Part shown: piece after piece, positions 11,691 to 60,916 of the stretch
How the letters are laid out: each line of letters opens with the position of its first letter
Position numbering within the stretch: position 1 is the first letter of the stretch
Source of the DNA: Lysinibacter cavernae
Lineage (GTDB): Bacteria; Actinomycetota; Actinomycetes; Actinomycetales; Microbacteriaceae
DNA: 64,000 nucleotides
Assembly: GCF_011758565.1 (NCBI RefSeq)
Contig: NZ_JAAMOX010000002.1
Location: 992,001-1,056,000, forward strand
Reading direction: 5' to 3'
Notes under the pieces: generated by a model
Told to the model about the DNA's origin: nothing
The model's input: the letters and a program-made list of their open reading frames with translations, nothing else
The model's database searches: none
Made by a program: the position numbers and the translations under genes

Positions 11691-11767
11691 TTCGTACGCC
11701 CTGGCCCGCCTTCGACCAGTTGTTTCTGGGAGGGGGCGGGCTTTTGCGTGCGCGGGACTGTGCATCC

Positions 11768-11819
11768 ATTCGCCGCTCGTTGCGAAGATTTGGCCCGAAT
11801 GTGACAATCATCGGCGAAC
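11768..11819. repeat. Orphan degenerate copy of palindromic repeat family 1
   Basis: 52 bases with inverted arms. The left arm (11768-11785, core CGCCGCTCGTTGCGA) matches the copies at 53204 and 54260; the right arm (11802-11819) is more diverged but ends in the shared CGGCGAAC. No nuclease gene is next to this copy. Confidence 0.7.
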
Positions 11820-11865
11820 GGATTGCCCTGCCGCGCTGTGTCCACGGGGCCTCCGTGGATCGAGC

Positions 11866-53170: not shown

Positions 53171-53203
53171 CGCGGGGCTGCTGTTTGTCTGTCTGCGCCG
53201 TCT

Positions 53204-53255
53204 GTTCGCCCCTCATTGCGATTCTTGGGCCAGTTTTTCGCAACGAACGGCGAAC
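53204..53255. repeat. Palindromic repeat family 1, copy upstream of nuclease gene 1
   Basis: 52 bases: left arm 53204-53221, right arm 53238-53255, matching at 15 of 18 positions. It shares GTTCGCC...GGCGAAC ends with the copies at 54260 and 11768. It lies 92 bases before the nuclease start. Confidence 0.8.
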
Positions 53256-53347
53256 GGATGAACGCCTAGAGCTATCTCCTCAGACGACCAGCTTGAAATC
53301 TGTGGATAACTTCTGCGCGCTGTCTGAAGGCTTGGCAGAGTGGGCGG

Positions 53348-54280
53348 ATGCACCCTCCAATCCAACCATTCACTGTTGCGCAGGGCCTTGCCGCCGGGGT
53401 CACCCCGTATGAACTTCGAGCTGGGCCGTATGGCAAACCGTATGTTGGTCTCAGGAGCGTGCCAAATCCGACCTTCTTTGATCGCTGTGCTGCGCTGTTG
53501 CTGATTATGCGGCCAGATGAGTGCTTGAGTCATCACACCGCAGCCGTGCTCTGGGGTGTCCCACTTCCAACTGCGAAATGCAACGACGGCACCCCGATCC
53601 ATATAACGACCGTCAGGACCGGGCGGGAACGCCGCATCGCCGGTGTTGTTGGGCATCGGACGATTGACCCTGCGGTATCAATCGTGTCCCGGTACGGATA
53701 TCCAACAGTCGACCCCATCACCATGTGGCTCAGCTTGGCCGGCTCGCTCACTCATCATGAGCTCGTCGCGGCGGCTGATTACCTCGTACAGGTGCCTGAA
53801 TTTTGTGAAATGCGCGAGCCGAGGCCGTTTGTGAACCTCGACAGGTTGCGGCACCGCCTGGAGATCTATCGGGGGCCGGGCAAACGCCGCGCTGCCCTTG
53901 CCTTTGTTGATGTTCGTGTTGGCAGCGATTCGCCAATGGAGACGCTTCTTCGCCTGAAGATACAAACCGCAGGATTGCCTGCGCCGCGACTGAATCAAGT
54001 GATCTTCGATCAAGCCGGTCAGCGGCTCGGACGCGTCGATCTTGTCTATCCGGAGTGGCGCGTCATCGTCGAATACGACGGCGATCAACATCGCACCGAC
54101 CTTCGGCAGTATGAGCATGACATCGACCGAGAGGAAGGGTTTCGCGCCGAGGCTTGGAGTTATTTGCGTGTGCGAGCTCGCCACCTGCGAGGGGATTTTG
54201 CGCCAACGGCCCAGCGGATCGAGCGGGCGCTTCGAGCTGGAGGATGGTTAGGCACATCCGTTCGCCGCTCGTTGCGATAA
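53348..54280 (+). CDS. DUF559/Vsr-like endonuclease-domain protein, nuclease gene 1
   Basis: 310 residues. The N-terminal half resembles the AbiEi-like region common in these actinobacterial proteins (HTAAVLWGVPLP, about 63-74). The C-terminal domain (about 195-300) has a PD-(D/E)XK/Vsr-like core: Glu in ESPMETLLR-type context, GRVDLVYPEWRVIVEYDGDQ and LRVRARHLRGDF. A paralog lies at 59607. The last codons and the TAA stop are provided by the left arm of the palindrome at 54260. Many genomes carry such single genes; their role, whether repair, defence or selfish, is not settled. Confidence 0.82.
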   Translation: MHPPIQPFTVAQGLAAGVTPYELRAGPYGKPYVGLRSVPNPTFFDRCAALLLIMRPDECLSHHTAAVLWGVPLPTAKCNDGTPIHITTVRTGRERRIAGVVGHRTIDPAVSIVSRYGYPTVDPITMWLSLAGSLTHHELVAAADYLVQVPEFCEMREPRPFVNLDRLRHRLEIYRGPGKRRAALAFVDVRVGSDSPMETLLRLKIQTAGLPAPRLNQVIFDQAGQRLGRVDLVYPEWRVIVEYDGDQHRTDLRQYEHDIDREEGFRAEAWSYLRVRARHLRGDFAPTAQRIERALRAGGWLGTSVRRSLR

Positions 54281-54311
54281 TCCGGCCGAAAAATCGCAAC
54301 GAGCGGCGAAC
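54260..54311. repeat. Palindromic repeat family 1, copy at the 3' end of nuclease gene 1
   Basis: Perfect 19-bp arms (54260-54278 and 54293-54311) with a 14-base loop; begins GTTCGCCGCTCG and ends CGAGCGGCGAAC. It overlaps the last seven codons of the nuclease gene and its stop. It is followed by three 8-bp direct repeats GATGAGTG/GATGAGCG (54313-54336). Confidence 0.85.
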
Positions 54312-54353
54312 CGATGAGTGGATGAGTGGATGAGCGGATGCCAGCCCGGCAGG

Positions 54354-55289
54354 CTAGTCCGGGTCGGACTCGTCGAGCGGGGCGTGGTGGTCGAGGTTGA
54401 CGACGCCGCGCTTCCAGTAGCCCTGGACCGAGAGGCGGGTGGCGAGCTGCGCCGCCGGGGAAGCCGCGGGGGACGAAGCCGAGGGCTGCGCCGCGGGGGC
54501 GGCCGATATGTCAGCCGGGGCGGCCGCCGCGACGGCTGGCGATGAAGCCTGCAGCGCCGCCAGTGTTGCGCGCAGGTAACGGCGCACAGGGATGAGTTCG
54601 CTTGCCTCGCCCGCCGCCCACACAAACGTGTCCGCGTCGAAGTCGAGCGATCGCACGGCCTCCAACAGTTGACCTGGCCCGTCTTCGCGGTAGAGCCACT
54701 CGATGGATGCCCTGGCGCGCTGATCAGCCGAGAAGTAGGCGTCGATGGAGTCATCCTCGCCCTGGGCGATGATGGTTACCCTGGTGGATGCTGGCAGCAG
54801 CTCAAGCCAACGGGTGGCGGCAGGCAGGGCCGACTCGTCAGCGATGAGGATGGCCCGCGCTGCGTCGGAGGGGGCGCAGACCGAGCCGCGGGGGCCGGCA
54901 ACAACGACCTCGTCATCCACAGCGGCACCCTGCGCCCATACCGTTGCGGGGCCCGGGTTTTCGTGCAGCACAAATTCAATGTCGAGCGTTGCAAGCGAGT
55001 CAGCTGTTGCCGCAACAAAACGCAGCGGCGTGTAGTCGCGCGAGATGGAGACGCCGGTGTCTGGGCGTTGGATAGCGCCATCCTCGGTGAGCCAGGGGGC
55101 ATTGAGGATGCCAGTTGCCGGGTCGGGCAGGAAGAGCTTGATGTGGTCGGTTGGCCCCGCCGAGACAAACCCGTCGAGGTCTTCTCCAGTGAGGGTCACC
55201 GACAGGATGGTGTCGGTCACGTTGCGTTTGGAGAGTACCCTGACGTTCCTCACGGCGAGGGGGTGGCGAATTCGTTCTTGAGGCTGCAT
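54354..55289 (-). CDS. Siderophore-interacting protein (FAD-binding ferric-siderophore reductase family)
   Basis: 311 residues. N-terminal FAD-binding barrel (SISRDYTPLRF is the flavin motif, PRGSV follows) and a C-terminal NAD(P)-like domain (ILIADESALPAATRWLELLP, FVWAAGEASELIPVRRYLR). It releases iron from ferric siderophores by reduction in the cytoplasm. An Ala/Pro/Ser-rich insert of about 45 residues separates the last helix from the terminal QGYWKRGVVNLDHH motif. Divergent from putA. No siderophore transporter is adjacent. Confidence 0.88.
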   Translation of the reverse strand: MQPQERIRHPLAVRNVRVLSKRNVTDTILSVTLTGEDLDGFVSAGPTDHIKLFLPDPATGILNAPWLTEDGAIQRPDTGVSISRDYTPLRFVAATADSLATLDIEFVLHENPGPATVWAQGAAVDDEVVVAGPRGSVCAPSDAARAILIADESALPAATRWLELLPASTRVTIIAQGEDDSIDAYFSADQRARASIEWLYREDGPGQLLEAVRSLDFDADTFVWAAGEASELIPVRRYLRATLAALQASSPAVAAAAPADISAAPAAQPSASSPAASPAAQLATRLSVQGYWKRGVVNLDHHAPLDESDPD

Positions 55290-55550
55290 ATGCTCCTGCT
55301 TTCTATCGGCGGCACGTTATTCCGCGCTCTGCGTCTCAGAGCGCGGGTCCGCAGTGCGTGCCGAATGGCTCGTGCCCGCGAGTTCATGGTGAGGGCACGT
55401 AGGCCTCCAGCCTAGGTCGTTTTGCTGGTGAGCGCATATGGGGCGGAACCGCTCCGCCCGCCTGCGGAACCCCTGGGAAATGCGGCGACGTGGCCGCTCG
55501 GAGGGCATCCAATGACCCGATTTCTGGGGCTCGCCGCCTAGGCTTGATCT

Positions 55551-58500
55551 ATGGCAGACGAAGCTGATCTCATTCACCCCGTTGCGCTCGCAGACGAGAC
55601 AGTCGCTCTCGTGCGTCAGTGGCTTGCTCTCAGTGAAGTTGACGAGGGCAAACAGGCTGGCGATACGCTCGCTTCTGTGCTTCGTGACGAGGCAGGCCTG
55701 AGTTTCACGAAGGATTTCGTTGACGGGGTCGCCCGCCCTGAGGATGCCTTTGTCGCCGCCCTCAACCTGAACAAGGTTGCCGCGCAGGCCCCAAGCTTTT
55801 TGCCGCCGGGGCTCCGGCTTGCGGTGCGTGCCGGTGGAATCGCCTCGCTCACGTTGCCCTGGGCCGTTATCCCTATGGCACGCACCGCGCTTCGTCGCAT
55901 GGTTGGCCATCTGATTGTTGATGCCCCCGCTGAGGGCCAGGCAAAGGGTCAGGCTGGCGCGAGGACGGATGCGCTCGGCCGCGCGCTCGCCCAGTTGCGG
56001 GCGGACGGCTCGCGGCCGAACCTCAGCGTGCTTGGCGAGCCGGTGCTCGGCGAGAGCGAGGCCCGTCACCGGCTTGCCGTCATCCGAGATCTTATGCTTC
56101 GTGACGACGTCGATGCGATCTCCGTCTCGATCTCGTCCATCGCGAGCAACATCACGATGTGGGACTTTGACGACGCCGTCGACCGGATTTCTGCCCGCCT
56201 CATCCCCTTGTTTGAGCTTTCTGCGGAGACCGGAACCGTTGTGACCCTCGACGCCGAGGAGTACCGCGACCTTGACCTCGTCAAGGCAATCTTTATGAAT
56301 GCGCTTGATCGCCCGCAGCTGTCGGGAGTCACCGCAGGGGTCGTGCTGCAGGCGTATTTGCCCGAATCGGTTGCGGCGCTTCACGAGCTCACCGACTGGT
56401 CACGCTCGCGGGTTGCCGACGGGGGAGTTCCCGTTCGGGTTCGGCTGGTGAAGGGCGCAAACCTTGCTCTGGAGCGCGTTGACTCCACGCTGCACGGATG
56501 GCCGCTCGCCCCAGTTGGCAGCAAGCAGGAGACCGATACCAACTTCAAACGCCTGCTTGATTTTGCGATGCGGCCTGAGAACGCCGAGGTGATCGGGGTT
56601 GGCGTCGCGAGCCATAATCTGTTTGACGTTGCGCTTGCCCACCTCCTTGCGGAGGCCAGGGGCCTGAGCCAGCACGTTGAGTTTGAGATGCTGCTTGGCA
56701 TGGCACCCGCCCAGGTGAAGGCGGTGCAGGCCACGGTCGGCAGCATCCGCCTGTACACCCCTGTTGTGCGGCCGAAGGAATTTGAGGCGGCTATTTCGTA
56801 CCTCGTTCGACGCCTTGATGAGAGCGCAAACGACGAGAACTACCTGTCAGCGATGTTCGAGCTTGGCGAGGATGAGCGTCTGTTTGATCGCGAACGCGGG
56901 CGTTTTATGGCATCCATCGCTGCGTTGGAAGCCGAGCCTGCTCCCCGCAGCAACCGCACCCAAAACCGGGCGACCGAGTGGAAGACTGAATCTGCTGACA
57001 GCGCGCTGTTTTACCGCAAGCCCGATACAAGCGCCGCCGGTGGCCCACAGGACGGCCTCACCGCCGCGGTGCTTCGCCTTGACGAACAGCCAACTACCGA
57101 GGTGCCCGTGCTTGAGCCGGCCTCCGTTCCCGACCGCATCCCCGTTGTGTCAACGACCGGATTTGTGAACGAACCAACCACAGACCCGACGCTTGCGGTC
57201 AACCGAGAGTGGGCGCTCGCGCTGCTGCAGCGCGCGCCCGAAAGCTCCGAGGGTCAGGCGACGCTCGACCAGGCCGTGATTTCAACCGCCGACGAGGTGG
57301 ATGCGCTTGCCGCCGCCGTCCGCGAACGCGCCGGTGGATGGGGTGCCATGGCCGCAACCGACCGGGGAGCCGTGCTTCGTAGAGTTGCGCTCGGGCTGAT
57401 TGCCAACCGAGATCGGCTGATCGAAACGATGGTGTCCGAAACGGGGGTCGTCCTCGCCGAAGCCGACCGTGAGGTGAGCGGGGCCGTAGATTTTGCTCGC
57501 TATTACGCAGACAGAGCCGCCGAACTTGACGCGATGGTTGGTGCCCGGTTTGTGCCGTCGCGACTGACCGTCGTTGCGTCGCCGTGGAATAGTCCCGTTG
57601 CTGTTCCTGTTGGCTCGTCGCTTGCTGCGCTCGCGGCCGGCAGCGGGGTCATCCTGAAGCCGGCGCCCGAGGCGCGGCGTTGTGCCGCGGTGGTTGCCGA
57701 GGTGCTGTGGGAGGCCGGTATCCCGAAGGAACTGCTCGTCCTCGTTGAGTTGCGCGATGTGGCAGCAGGTGCTCGACGTTCTGCGGGTGCAGACACAGGC
57801 GCGGATACAGGCGCAAATACAGACGCAGAGGCGGCCGCAGACGGAGACGTTGGTGTCGGTGCCGATGTGGAGCTGGATGCCGGTTCGGGCGACGCGGGGG
57901 AGAGGGCGGTTGCCCCGGTTGTTCCCGCCGTTGCGCCAGTCCTGCCGCCGACCGACGAGACCGCCAGCGCGAGCACGGCTGCCAAAGGGACGGCGGCTGC
58001 TCGAACGACCGCACCCGAACCCAACGAGAGCGCAGACGCTGACGGCGTTGCGGATGAAGCCGAGCAGGGCATCCAATCTGCTGGAGGGGCCAGCGACACA
58101 CGCAGGCTCGAGACCTATCTCGCCGCGCACCCGGCTGTCGATCGACTGCTCCTCACGGGAACCTGGCGTACCGCTCGGCATCTGCAACAGCAGCGCCCCG
58201 AGCTGCAACTGCTTGCGGCGACAAACGGCAAGAATGCCATCGTCGTGACCCCGAGCGCGGATATTGACCTTGCCGTCGCCGACATCGTTGAGAGCGCTTT
58301 TGGCAACGCTGGGCAGCGATGTTCGTCGACCAGCCTCGTCATCCTTGTTGGCAGCGCCGCCAGATCAAAGCGCTTTGCGAGGCAGCTTGAAGATGCGGTC
58401 CGTTCGCTTCGTGTTGGTCCGGCGACTGACCCAGCGACGCAGGTTGGGCCGCTCATCGCCCCCGCCTCAGGCCGACTCCTCGACACGCTGACCTCCCTCG

Positions 58501-59531
58501 AAGCCGGAGAATCGTGGATGGTCCAGCCAGAGCGCCGCGATGCCGAGGGCCAGCTCTGGTCGCCAGGCGTGAAACTTGGTGTCCGCAAGGGGTCGAGCTT
58601 CCACCTCACCGAGACGTTTGGGCCGGTGCTTGGCATTATGCACGCCCTCACCCTGCACGAGGCTATCGACATTCAGAATGCGGTCGAGTACGGCCTTGCA
58701 GGCGGGTTGCACTCGCTTGATGCCGAGGAGATTGGCGTGTGGGTGGATAACGTTCATTCCGGTAACCTCTTCGTCAACCGTGCGGTCACCCCCGCAATTG
58801 TTGAGCGGCAGCCGTTTGGTGGGTGGAAGCGGTCCTCCGTTGGCGCCGGTTTCCAGGCTGGCGGCCCGAACACGTTGCTCGCGCTTGGCGGGTGGCGCCC
58901 GGAAGAAGGAGCCAAGAGCTCAACGCTCCATTTGCGCGGGCTGTCGGCGTGGGTGACAAGTCTCATCGAGGCCGCGCAGCAGTCGCTCGACTACGAAGAA
59001 TTTGATGTGCTGCGCCGGGCCGCACTGAGCGACGCCTATCTGTGGGGCACGGAACTGAGCGAGGTGCACGACGTCTCGCGTCTTGGCATCGAGCGCAACC
59101 TGCAGCGCTACTGGCCGGCGCCCGTCATGGTTCGAGTGGCCGAGGGCAGCACGCTCAACGATGCGCTTCGAGTGATCGTGGCCGGGTTGCTCGCCCGCGC
59201 CCCGCTGACGTTGAGCGTTTCGCGGCCGCTTCCCGGCGCCATCATGAAGGTCCTCACCGATTTGGATGTGTCGGTGAGCATCGAATCGGATGCCGACTGG
59301 CTGGAACGCGTCGCCGTCGGCATCGACGGGGTTTCGCGCATCCGCCTGGTCGGGGGAGACCGTGCCGCTACGGCACGCGCGGCCGTTGCACATCCTGACG
59401 TGACCTTGTTTGCCGAACCGGTTACCAACGCCGGGCGATTGGAGCTGCTCCCATTCTTGCGCGAGCAGTCGCTGAGCATCACGGCCCACCGCTTCGGAGT
59501 GCCGTCATCGCTCACCGATTCGCTCTTCTAG
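55551..59531 (+). CDS. putA: Bifunctional proline dehydrogenase / glutamate semialdehyde dehydrogenase
   Basis: 1326 residues, actinobacterial-type PutA. The proline dehydrogenase barrel spans about 100-450 (VRLVKGANLALERV, GVASHNLFD). The aldehyde dehydrogenase domain follows (about 550-1160) with catalytic Cys924 (AGQRCSSTS), and a C-terminal extra domain reaches 1326. It oxidises proline to glutamate; FAD in the first domain, NAD in the second. Two oddities: an Asp/Ala-rich insert of about 110 residues (about 737-850, 57757-58100) inside the ALDH domain, and AATNGKNA where AET(G/S)GKNA is usual, so a conserved Glu is replaced. No DNA-binding domain. Divergent from the SIP gene. Confidence 0.9.
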   Translation: MADEADLIHPVALADETVALVRQWLALSEVDEGKQAGDTLASVLRDEAGLSFTKDFVDGVARPEDAFVAALNLNKVAAQAPSFLPPGLRLAVRAGGIASLTLPWAVIPMARTALRRMVGHLIVDAPAEGQAKGQAGARTDALGRALAQLRADGSRPNLSVLGEPVLGESEARHRLAVIRDLMLRDDVDAISVSISSIASNITMWDFDDAVDRISARLIPLFELSAETGTVVTLDAEEYRDLDLVKAIFMNALDRPQLSGVTAGVVLQAYLPESVAALHELTDWSRSRVADGGVPVRVRLVKGANLALERVDSTLHGWPLAPVGSKQETDTNFKRLLDFAMRPENAEVIGVGVASHNLFDVALAHLLAEARGLSQHVEFEMLLGMAPAQVKAVQATVGSIRLYTPVVRPKEFEAAISYLVRRLDESANDENYLSAMFELGEDERLFDRERGRFMASIAALEAEPAPRSNRTQNRATEWKTESADSALFYRKPDTSAAGGPQDGLTAAVLRLDEQPTTEVPVLEPASVPDRIPVVSTTGFVNEPTTDPTLAVNREWALALLQRAPESSEGQATLDQAVISTADEVDALAAAVRERAGGWGAMAATDRGAVLRRVALGLIANRDRLIETMVSETGVVLAEADREVSGAVDFARYYADRAAELDAMVGARFVPSRLTVVASPWNSPVAVPVGSSLAALAAGSGVILKPAPEARRCAAVVAEVLWEAGIPKELLVLVELRDVAAGARRSAGADTGADTGANTDAEAAADGDVGVGADVELDAGSGDAGERAVAPVVPAVAPVLPPTDETASASTAAKGTAAARTTAPEPNESADADGVADEAEQGIQSAGGASDTRRLETYLAAHPAVDRLLLTGTWRTARHLQQQRPELQLLAATNGKNAIVVTPSADIDLAVADIVESAFGNAGQRCSSTSLVILVGSAARSKRFARQLEDAVRSLRVGPATDPATQVGPLIAPASGRLLDTLTSLEAGESWMVQPERRDAEGQLWSPGVKLGVRKGSSFHLTETFGPVLGIMHALTLHEAIDIQNAVEYGLAGGLHSLDAEEIGVWVDNVHSGNLFVNRAVTPAIVERQPFGGWKRSSVGAGFQAGGPNTLLALGGWRPEEGAKSSTLHLRGLSAWVTSLIEAAQQSLDYEEFDVLRRAALSDAYLWGTELSEVHDVSRLGIERNLQRYWPAPVMVRVAEGSTLNDALRVIVAGLLARAPLTLSVSRPLPGAIMKVLTDLDVSVSIESDADWLERVAVGIDGVSRIRLVGGDRAATARAAVAHPDVTLFAEPVTNAGRLELLPFLREQSLSITAHRFGVPSSLTDSLF

Positions 59532-59560
59532 CGGCTGACTCGACCCGAACGATTCATTCG

Positions 59561-59612
59561 ACCTGACCCAAATGTGTCTATTTCCCGGGAAATAGACACA
59601 TTTGGGTCAGGT
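59561..59612. repeat. Perfect 52-bp palindrome, repeat family 2, at the 3' end of nuclease gene 2
   Basis: 26-bp arms with no spacer: ACCTGACCCAAATGTGTC... on the left and its exact complement on the right, meeting at CCCGGG. It lies between the convergent putA and nuclease genes and contains the nuclease stop codon. Followed by GGATTG shared with the other copy. Confidence 0.92.
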
Positions 59613-60806
59613 GGATTGGTTGGATGCGTTGGATGCGCGTGCGAGGAAGAGCCCGCGTACCCTCGCGGCCGTGACCCTCGGTTCGCGGTAGAGGCCGTGA
59701 GCTCGCACTCGGTAGACGTGCCACTCTTCCGCCCCGAAGCGATACACGCGGGTCATGTCGTGTTCGTACTGTGCGGTGTTTGTGCGGTGCTGATCGCCGT
59801 CATACTCCACGATGAGTTTCGCCTCGGGGTAGACAAGGTCCGCCCGACCGATGCGCACACCAAACCGGTCCCTGATGACGGGGTTGAGGTTGGGCTCTGG
59901 CAATCCGGCGCGCTGAAGGAGGAGGCGCAAATGAGTCTCAGGGCGGGAATCCGAGCCTTCACGGATTAACGGGAGGGCCCGCCGAACGTTGGCTTTACCC
60001 CTGCCGACAAACGCGCCCGCCGCTGAGATGAGCTGCGCTGCGGATGTATACGGCCTTGGATCGTTCCTATCTGGGTATTCCGGAACCCGGATGAGGTAGT
60101 CGCCCGCTGCAACAAGGTCGTCGGTCGTGAGTGCGCTCGCGAGTTGCAACCACGTTGATACGACATCCGCTACAGGAACTCCGCGTCTGAGTACGATGCT
60201 CCCGCCGGGACGGTCGAACTGAAAACCGTGGATGCCAGCGGCCCGTCGCGCCCGCAGCGGCGGCTGTGTCGCAACGTGGAGCGTAGGGATGGGCTGGCCA
60301 TCGGGTGTGGGTGGTGGTTCGCTGTGTGGATACGCGAGCACTGGTGCTGGTTGGTTGTGCGGGTTCCCTGGTGTGGGTGGTGGTTGGTTGTGAGGGTTCC
60401 CGGGTGTGGGTGCTGGTTGGTTGTGCTGACTCCCGAGCCCCGGCGCTGGTTGGTTGTGCGGATTCCCCGGCATCAGGGGTGGTTGACCAGGCAGGCCCCC
60501 GATAGCTCGGGATGCCGTGTCCCATCGTCGTTGAACAGGTTCGCCCCATTGGCTCGGCAGCGGGATGCCCCAGAGCGAGGCCGCGGTGACCCCTCCAAAA
60601 CACTCTCCTGGCCGCAGGCGTGGGGCGAAGGCCACGCAGAGGCTGTGCAGGGTGTAATTCGCTGCCGCGTGCATCCTCACCCCATGGAACGGCGCAACGA
60701 GATCCGAAGACAGGAGGCGCGTTGGCCGAACGCCCCGCGCGGATGCTTCACGTACGTCAAAGGAACGCGCGCGCAGTTCGTCGGGTAGCGGAATGTATCT
60801 GGCCAT
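59607..60806 (-). CDS. DUF559/Vsr-like endonuclease-domain protein, nuclease gene 2, with internal repeats
   Basis: 399 residues, paralog of the gene at 53348. The N-terminus (FDVREASARGVRPTRLLSSD, VTAASLWGIPLP) fits the AbiEi-like region. Residues about 110-190 are a Pro/Asn/Gln-rich insert made of 11-residue units such as NPHNQPAPTPG. The nuclease core (GRADLVYPEAKLIVEYDGDQ, YRVRAHGLYRE) is intact. The TGA stop lies in the palindrome at 59561. The start at 60806 fits the family N-terminus; an in-frame ATG at 60875 lies inside the other palindrome copy and would add 23 residues. Confidence 0.82.
   Translation of the reverse strand: MARYIPLPDELRARSFDVREASARGVRPTRLLSSDLVAPFHGVRMHAAANYTLHSLCVAFAPRLRPGECFGGVTAASLWGIPLPSQWGEPVQRRWDTASRAIGGLPGQPPLMPGNPHNQPAPGLGSQHNQPAPTPGNPHNQPPPTPGNPHNQPAPVLAYPHSEPPPTPDGQPIPTLHVATQPPLRARRAAGIHGFQFDRPGGSIVLRRGVPVADVVSTWLQLASALTTDDLVAAGDYLIRVPEYPDRNDPRPYTSAAQLISAAGAFVGRGKANVRRALPLIREGSDSRPETHLRLLLQRAGLPEPNLNPVIRDRFGVRIGRADLVYPEAKLIVEYDGDQHRTNTAQYEHDMTRVYRFGAEEWHVYRVRAHGLYREPRVTAARVRGLFLARASNASNQST
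60316..60480. repeat. 33-bp coding minisatellite, five units
   Basis: Five consecutive 33-base units starting at 60316, 60349, 60382, 60415 and 60448. Four share GGTTGGTTGTG; the first is diverged (GGTTCGCTGTG). They encode 11-residue Pro-rich units inside nuclease gene 2 and keep the frame, so copy number can change without breaking the protein. Confidence 0.85.
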
Positions 60807-60864
60807 GCGGTGATTCTGCCCGAACCGCCAAAGACGCGTGAAAATTATCCACAGCCGTGAATCG

Positions 60865-60916
60865 ATGTGACGCAAATGTGTCTATTTCGCGGGAAATAGA
60901 CACATTTGGGTCAGGT
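60865..60916. repeat. Palindromic repeat family 2, copy upstream of nuclease gene 2
   Basis: 52 bases; the right half is identical to the 59587-59612 half, and the left half differs from perfect pairing at four of 26 positions. The match to the other copy continues through GGATTG to 60922. Both copies lie in the same orientation. Confidence 0.9.

Follow-up and report, generated by a model that had tools for sequence, protein, structure and literature searches.

Two DUF559-type nuclease genes, gene 1 and gene 2, lie 5.3 kb apart in a 64,000-nucleotide stretch of the Lysinibacter cavernae genome (NZ_JAAMOX010000002.1, assembly GCF_011758565.1). The whole of this stretch is referred to below as the window, and coordinates are window positions. 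Each gene is accompanied by long palindromes of its own family, and most homologues of the genes in other actinobacteria have palindromes of their own in the same places. On balance, a gene of this DUF559 subfamily and its palindromes are probably one unit, a partnership like that of the repetitive extragenic palindromic (REP) sequences with the REP-associated tyrosine transposases (RAYTs) but built on an unrelated nuclease. It looks like a hitherto undescribed pairing, in one large group of soil and plant bacteria, of a predicted nuclease with a small DNA repeat that spreads.

The homologues form a set of 80 named sequences, mostly Microbacteriaceae by title. Four were dropped for stop codons (L094, L100, L102 and L128), leaving 76 intact genes, and alignment A3 leaves out four more (L122, L126, L136 and L143). 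Of 120 genomes sampled from the taxonomic family, 79 contain close homologues, the window's own among them. A long palindrome is found within 330 bp of 59 of the 76 intact genes, as against 2 of 70 loci in control windows 1.45-1.8 kb away. It is present on both sides of 30 genes, only upstream of 20, only downstream of 9 and on neither side of 17, which gives 50 upstream and 39 downstream palindromes in total. The upstream copies end 53-115 bp ahead of the start codon in 42 of 50 cases, and the downstream copies start between -40 and +21 of the stop codon in 28 of 39. For 45 of the 80 sequences, the 5' flank matches the 3' flank of the same gene (Smith-Waterman score of at least 20), as against 2 of 471 cross-gene pairs; when matched flanks are counted too, 65 of the 76 genes are positive. 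The unit would have the layout palindrome, about 50-120 bp, nuclease gene, and palindrome at or just past the stop codon.

Palindromes of this kind have a median span of 59 bp (n=107) and consist of two arms, each of about 19 well-paired bases, with a loosely paired centre, the spacer. No common spacer motif stands out, the most frequent 6-mer being found in 10 loci. Stretches of 200 kb from each of two relatives hold 9 and 12 palindromes of this size, a few of which are perhaps of other kinds; two Markov simulations gave 0 and 0. Some units depart from the usual build. In L096 a 106-bp palindrome (score 39), lengthened by extra inverted sequence, lies directly 3' of the gene, and in L109 and L143 the upstream and downstream palindromes share the inner arm only (GCAATGTTT or a near copy), the outer arms being different.

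The association is a trait of one subfamily, since other DUF559-domain proteins mostly lack palindromes. In genomes G117 and G121, 4 of 13 loci with PF18741 matches adjoin a long palindrome (L234, L238, L241 and L242). The view that all DUF559-type proteins form such units was rejected on the basis of the other nine. A further PF18741 match in the L. cavernae genome lies inside a long frame (L233), with a palindrome only at a distance of 450 bp.

The features of the window are collected in Table 1. A preliminary description of this DNA had reported two DUF559-type paralogues, each with its own palindrome family, families A and B being unrelated in sequence, and all of this is confirmed. The length of 52 bases that it gave for both palindromes is correct for the uninterrupted cores (54260-54311 in A and 59561-59612 in B) but not for the whole units, which measure 62 and 64 bases. 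The palindrome was said to form the 3' end of the gene, and the stop codons do lie inside A and B. A restriction to the 3' end does not hold, as 5' copies flank both genes and upstream or two-sided palindromes are common among the homologues in the counts given above. The same counts, including the 39 downstream palindromes, answer its question of whether other family members possess palindromes at all. When folded as single-stranded DNA, five of the six window palindromes surpass every one of the 200 shuffles (z -3.06 to -10.20); for the degenerate A copy at 11763 the fold by itself is not significant (z -1.25, 23 of 200 shuffles as good). For the third-family palindrome, neither a gene nor, among the 40 of 182 candidates scored, a further copy was found in the genome.

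Table 1. Nuclease genes and long palindromes of the window
Feature	Position	Strand	Remarks
Gene 1	53348-54280	+	310 aa; AbiEi-like N-terminal part 1-190, Vsr/I-Bth0305I-like nuclease domain 195-300
Gene 2	59607-60806	-	399 aa counted from ATG; paralogue of gene 1; low-complexity insert
5' palindrome of gene 1, family A, degenerate	53199-53260		Arms as in 54255-54316 with changes; fold z -3.06
3' palindrome of gene 1, family A	54255-54316		Includes gene 1 stop codon; fold z -8.33
3' palindrome of gene 2, family B	59555-59618		Includes gene 2 stop codon; 52-bp perfect core; fold z -10.20
5' palindrome of gene 2, family B	60860-60921		Fold z -10.03
Degenerate palindrome A copy, geneless, intergenic	11763-11822		Sequence match G000:C2:1003763-1003823, E 6.5e-6
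Third-family palindrome, geneless, intergenic	11859-11918		Fold z -8.63

The L. cavernae genome (3.75 Mb in 4 contigs, labelled G000) contains eight full-length paralogues found by tblastn, plus fragments. All eight are flanked on at least one side by a palindrome of about 46-76 bp, the sequence of which differs gene by gene. The proteins of gene 1 and gene 2 are 43% identical, and the nearest paralogue of gene 1 in the same genome has 53% identity. The palindromes of gene 1 and of this 53% paralogue have the outer arm GTTCGCCGC in common and differ in the inner sequence. A second copy of gene 2 (C1:2208203-2209575), also flanked by B palindromes, was excluded as an assembly overlap because its surroundings (L009, G000:C1:2207307-2210339) are 99.3% identical to the gene 2 region over 3 kb, with 16 gap openings, right to the end of contig C1. 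A nested family of 70-bp palindromes belongs to a distant paralogue (26%; L013:1345-2232); it has no fewer than 13 sites, and CTCGTGGGGCGC or a near copy is present twice per arm. Two DUF559 relics of this genome, L008 and L248, are truncated or have internal stops.

The similarity of the proteins correlates with that of their palindromes. A Mantel test over 66 genes gave a rho of 0.16, with 0 of 999 permutations reaching it. The mean palindrome score is 50 for protein pairs of more than 75% identity (4 pairs), 15 for those of 60-75% (12 pairs) and 6.4-6.8 for those below 45%. Relatives of mid-range identity sometimes have one portion of the arm in common. At one locus, whose flanks are 72-83% identical in three congeneric species (L253, L255 and L256), the gene and its palindromes have changed jointly in L253. 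The match between nuclease lineages and palindromes proposed in the preliminary description is supported by this correlation, within the one subfamily.

Several palindrome families have copies away from the genes. Family B occupies 30 places in the genome; two of these belong to the contig overlap and two to the gene itself, which leaves 26. One of the 26 (L269, 32 of 64 positions identical) is doubtful and was removed from the count of B conservation, for which 27 B copies were examined. Among the 40 of 182 candidates scored, gene flanks included, family P3 has at least 14 sites, P13 at least 13 and A at least 4, and none was found away from their own genes for families P2, P6 and P7. A search of 119 further genomes of the taxonomic family for eight palindrome families, with up to 5 candidates scored per genome, found none of them, which is a weak negative. 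The copies in the L. cavernae genome (n=49, classified by a simple rule on open reading frames) lie between tandem genes in 25 cases, convergent genes in 13 and divergent genes in 5, with 5 unclassified and 1 within an open reading frame. Arrays of palindromes with a period of about 74 bp occur in one species (40 of 120-127 candidates scored per genome).

The dispersed copies align without gaps and have a constant length, and their arms are conserved while their spacers differ. Arm identity is 83% in B (n=24), 85% in P13 (n=11) and 94% in P3 (n=13); the corresponding spacer identities are 30%, 61% and 44%, with flanks at 29-33%. The two flanks of one gene sometimes agree better: in 9 of 35 pairs the spacer identity is 0.85 or higher (gapped alignment), and it amounts to 0.88 in B and 1.00 in P13, as compared with 0.30 and 0.61 between dispersed copies.

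Polymorphism and copy families were examined in a sister genus, because only one genome represents the genus of the window. At least 16 f4 sites and none of the other five families were found in G047. G124 contains at least 22 f5 and 6 f6 sites, G123 at least 10 f3 and 1 f2 sites, G117 at least 7 f1, 4 f2 and 5 f3 sites, and G122 at least 8 f2, 3 f1 and 7 f3 sites. Across these five genomes f4 was found only alongside its gene, and f5 and f6 likewise only alongside theirs, absences being weak in counts that are lower bounds; the families mostly go with a resident gene. A PF18741 search of G117 and G121 did not find the cognate genes of two palindrome families. In a sister species (L257) one palindrome of those two families, GAGTTGCCCACTTC, flanks a gene; AGGGGTC palindromes similar to it adjoin genes in two others (L253 and L254). 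The nuclease genes keep the same locus between species.

The occupation of the dispersed sites differs between sister species. A G117 palindrome of family f3 (L196), situated directly after a stop codon, is missing in G121 and G120, where the flanks are intact, and a pairwise comparison of 200 kb of G117 with G121 revealed further sites occupied in one genome only. At 20 G117 sites, a long palindrome was detected in the G122 counterpart in 9 cases and not in 11. Both flanks were matched at 16 of these sites, 7 with a palindrome and 9 without. Examined by eye, the nine negative sites include a diverged palindrome (L320), a degenerate one (L322), three sites with one arm left (L332, L336 and L199) and four with nothing left (L321, L323, L324 and L187). 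The preliminary description had suggested a mobile unit. Dispersed copies and presence or absence between sister species agree with this, and movement brought about by the protein itself would be a further step. As a separate observation, a palindrome at L196, L188 and L192 lies within apparently conserved coding sequence in three species.

Where orthologous sites of sister species are both occupied, the spacer is the same or almost so at L328, L331 and L337, and differs between identical or near-identical arms at L333, L334 and L335. At L330 the changes affect the inner arms on both sides and are in register. The inner arms of L327 lean, by eye, toward the gene of their own species, with ATCGTC in G117 and ACTGTC in G122; the ACTGTC form is also seen by eye on one or both arms at no fewer than 6 other G117 sites.

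DUF559/MTES_1575 nuclease models match both window proteins, and Pfam gives nothing else. The curated cut-off of DUF559 (PF04480), 20.6 bits, is exceeded by gene 1 (22.2) and narrowly missed by gene 2 (20.4). A scan of NCBIfam matched neither protein, and the AbiEi model of PADLOC matched gene 1 weakly (E 2.6e-4) and gene 2 not at all. AlphaFold2 gave a confident model of gene 1 (pLDDT 94.2, pTM 0.90), which was compared with known structures by VIA-align. Residues 195-300 align with the catalytic domain of the homing endonuclease I-Bth0305I (Z 12.4, root-mean-square deviation (rmsd) 2.8, 97 residues aligned), with an endonuclease-like gonococcal protein (Z 11.8, rmsd 2.7, 92 aligned) and with Vsr (Z 10.8, rmsd 2.5, 100 aligned). 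Residues 1-190 align with the AbiEi antitoxin (6y8q; Z 11.0, rmsd 5.9, 170 aligned) and with Rv2827c (Z 8.5, rmsd 3.8, 174 aligned). Foldseek returned no match to the model at E<=0.001, so the fold assignments rest on VIA-align and on weak profile matches (3hrl, E 2.4e-6; 3r3p, E 0.0078). As modelled, the protein looks like a fusion of an AbiEi antitoxin with a Vsr/I-Bth0305I-like nuclease. Eight residues are invariant in 79 sequences, among them E198, D231, H248 and D258, which are candidates for the conserved acidic and histidine residues of the EDxHD type. The ratio of nonsynonymous to synonymous substitution rates (dN/dS) is 0.10-0.31 in 8 pairs, indicating purifying selection, with dS above 1 in three of them; in all 8 pairs the nuclease part evolves more slowly and the AbiEi-like part faster.

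The sites bound by AbiEi are two 23-bp inverted repeats separated by 3 bp; those of Rv2827c are pairs of 23-bp repeats with 13 bp between them. In each case they lie upstream of the protein's own gene (PMC7319586). The summed operator spans are 49 and 59 bp, as compared with the palindrome median of 59 bp. The target on which I-Bth0305I forms a dimer is nearly 60 bp long (PMC3943268). The protein therefore likely binds its palindrome, the span of which resembles these operators and this target. The AbiEi-type type IV antitoxins share with the system the N-terminal fold and the inverted repeats upstream of the gene, but they lack the nuclease fusion and the downstream and dispersed palindromes, and no toxin was found among five scanned neighbours of the window genes. 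The EDxHD homing endonuclease I-Bth0305I shares the nuclease fold and the scale of the dimer target. Unlike these enzymes, the genes described here have no intron location and many target-like copies in the host genome, and where both flanking palindromes are found they are whole, rather than halves of a split target. Vsr, the mismatch endonuclease, has the same nuclease fold, but the proteins in question have an extra N-terminal part, and no methyltransferase was found among the five scanned neighbours.

The closest parallel in organisation is with REP/RAYT, in which a single-copy gene is flanked by its own repeat and several such pairs occur per genome (PMC3116915, PMC3733652). As in these REPtrons (REP/REPIN-RAYT), several distinct pairs of a single-copy gene and its own palindrome family coexist in one genome, and extragenic copies are dispersed near the 3' ends of genes, in clusters and without a gene. 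There are also differences. RAYT is a Y1/HUH tyrosine transposase, a defining feature that is missing from the AbiEi-like and Vsr-like protein; the REPs of 20-40 bp form REPIN doublets, whereas here there is one inverted pair of about 59 bp, whose spacer varies at a fixed length. The system is rated as new by its parts and REP/RAYT-like in its way of life. No report of an association between such a nuclease and palindromes was found in a search of open-access full text, preprints and most subscription journals being outside the scope of that search.

A mechanism for such a unit may be outlined as follows. The protein, probably as a dimer, would recognise both arms of its own palindrome and place the nuclease domains over the spacer, and the upstream copy would probably double as an operator by which the protein regulates its own gene, as AbiEi antitoxins do. 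The dispersed copies would be small REP-like elements that depend on the nuclease in trans for their spread or upkeep. Cleavage in or near the spacer of such a copy would be followed by a repair that alters the spacer and now and then spreads the copy, so that the spread would be enzyme-driven. As the specificity of the enzyme drifts, the palindromes would drift along or be lost. A wider interpretation, to which we give slightly less than an even chance, is that of a second, independently evolved class of REP-like elements: many species-specific palindromes of the Actinomycetota, spread and rewritten by dedicated AbiEi-Vsr-type nucleases that would recognise the arms and break the spacer, the specificities of enzyme and palindrome turning over jointly.

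A number of results weigh against the one-unit, REP/RAYT-like interpretation. No palindrome was found at 17 of the 76 homologues, 11 of which have no matched flanks either, and of 29 loci in a second, partly shared set, judged by a stricter threshold, 19 showed a palindrome and 10 did not. The Mantel signal comes largely from 16 close pairs, which are phylogenetically non-independent. In partial Mantel tests the N-terminal part given the C-terminal part yielded 0.019 (329 of 999 permutations) and the C-terminal part given the N-terminal part 0.155 (0 of 999), and the candidate role of the AbiEi-like N-terminal part as the specificity domain was rejected for want of support from these tests. 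The f3 gene was not found in G117 or G122 despite the f3 sites there, which indicates that copies can exist geneless. The best-polarised insertion, L196, belongs to this very family, and confidence is lowered accordingly. Clear target-site duplications were not seen at the compared sites, and the arms that remain at some empty sites suggest that part of the presence and absence is due to loss. Finally, the copying of the palindromes is not explained by a nuclease that has no known joining step.

The AbiEi-like fold, the matching operator geometry in the cited AbiEi work, the conserved arms with drifting spacers and the regular distance of the upstream copies from the start codon would also be expected of an AbiEi-like repressor with autoregulatory flanking sites and with dispersed sites that are regulatory or chromosome-organising, selected rather than mobile. 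We regard this as unlikely: divergent intergenic positions, at 5 of 49, are few, the tandem and convergent ones that predominate are odd for operators, and neither the presence and absence between sister species nor the arrays in one species are readily accommodated. Still less probable is the idea that palindrome, gene and palindrome move as a unit into palindromes, single palindromes being recombination scars comparable to solo long terminal repeats. The equal spacers at some own-gene flanks recall a duplicated target, but no recent second gene copy was found in the window's genome, the near-identical gene 2 copy being the contig-end overlap and the next gene 1 paralogue the 53% one; moreover, dispersed spacers differ and the genes stay at their loci between species.

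The preliminary description had put forward an addiction unit as a possibility, which has no support; an addiction or defence unit in which a toxic nuclease is neutralised or directed by the palindromes is very improbable. The N-terminal fold is that of a toxin-antitoxin component, and PADLOC gave its weak AbiEi match to gene 1 only; yet AbiEi is the antitoxin, no nucleotidyltransferase toxin was found among the five neighbouring window proteins scanned, and homologues are rare in plasmid records (4 of 72,556) and phage records (1 of 50,697). Ordinary terminators or gene-end hairpins that lie near these genes by coincidence can practically be dismissed. Hairpins do occur at or just past the stops, and dispersed copies often follow stops, but the length of about 59 bp, the upstream copies and the conservation of the arms across unrelated loci are foreign to terminators, and the same sequence on both sides of a gene, the control windows and the Mantel result mainly refute the idea.

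If the one-unit interpretation is true, a common group of 'unknown' nucleases, present in two-thirds of the sampled genomes by the count given above, acquires a role, and one kind of dispersed palindrome in high-G+C bacteria is accounted for. The paired variants of enzyme and target would form a natural series for reading DNA recognition by the nuclease, and the spread of REP-like repeats would become testable in a system unrelated to RAYT.

The surroundings of the two genes are ordinary, the five scanned neighbours being thioesterase-like, siderophore-interacting, Pro_dh/Aldedh, SnoaL-like and permease proteins. The gene 2 reading frame stays open as far as a TTG at 60875. Its low-complexity insert (60320-60500) is built of PGNPHNQP-type repeats, and in that half of the protein the paralogues L005 and L007 have different inserts. 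The bifunctional Pro_dh/Aldedh protein encoded between the nuclease genes (55551-59531) has a low-complexity stretch as well, at about residues 740-850.

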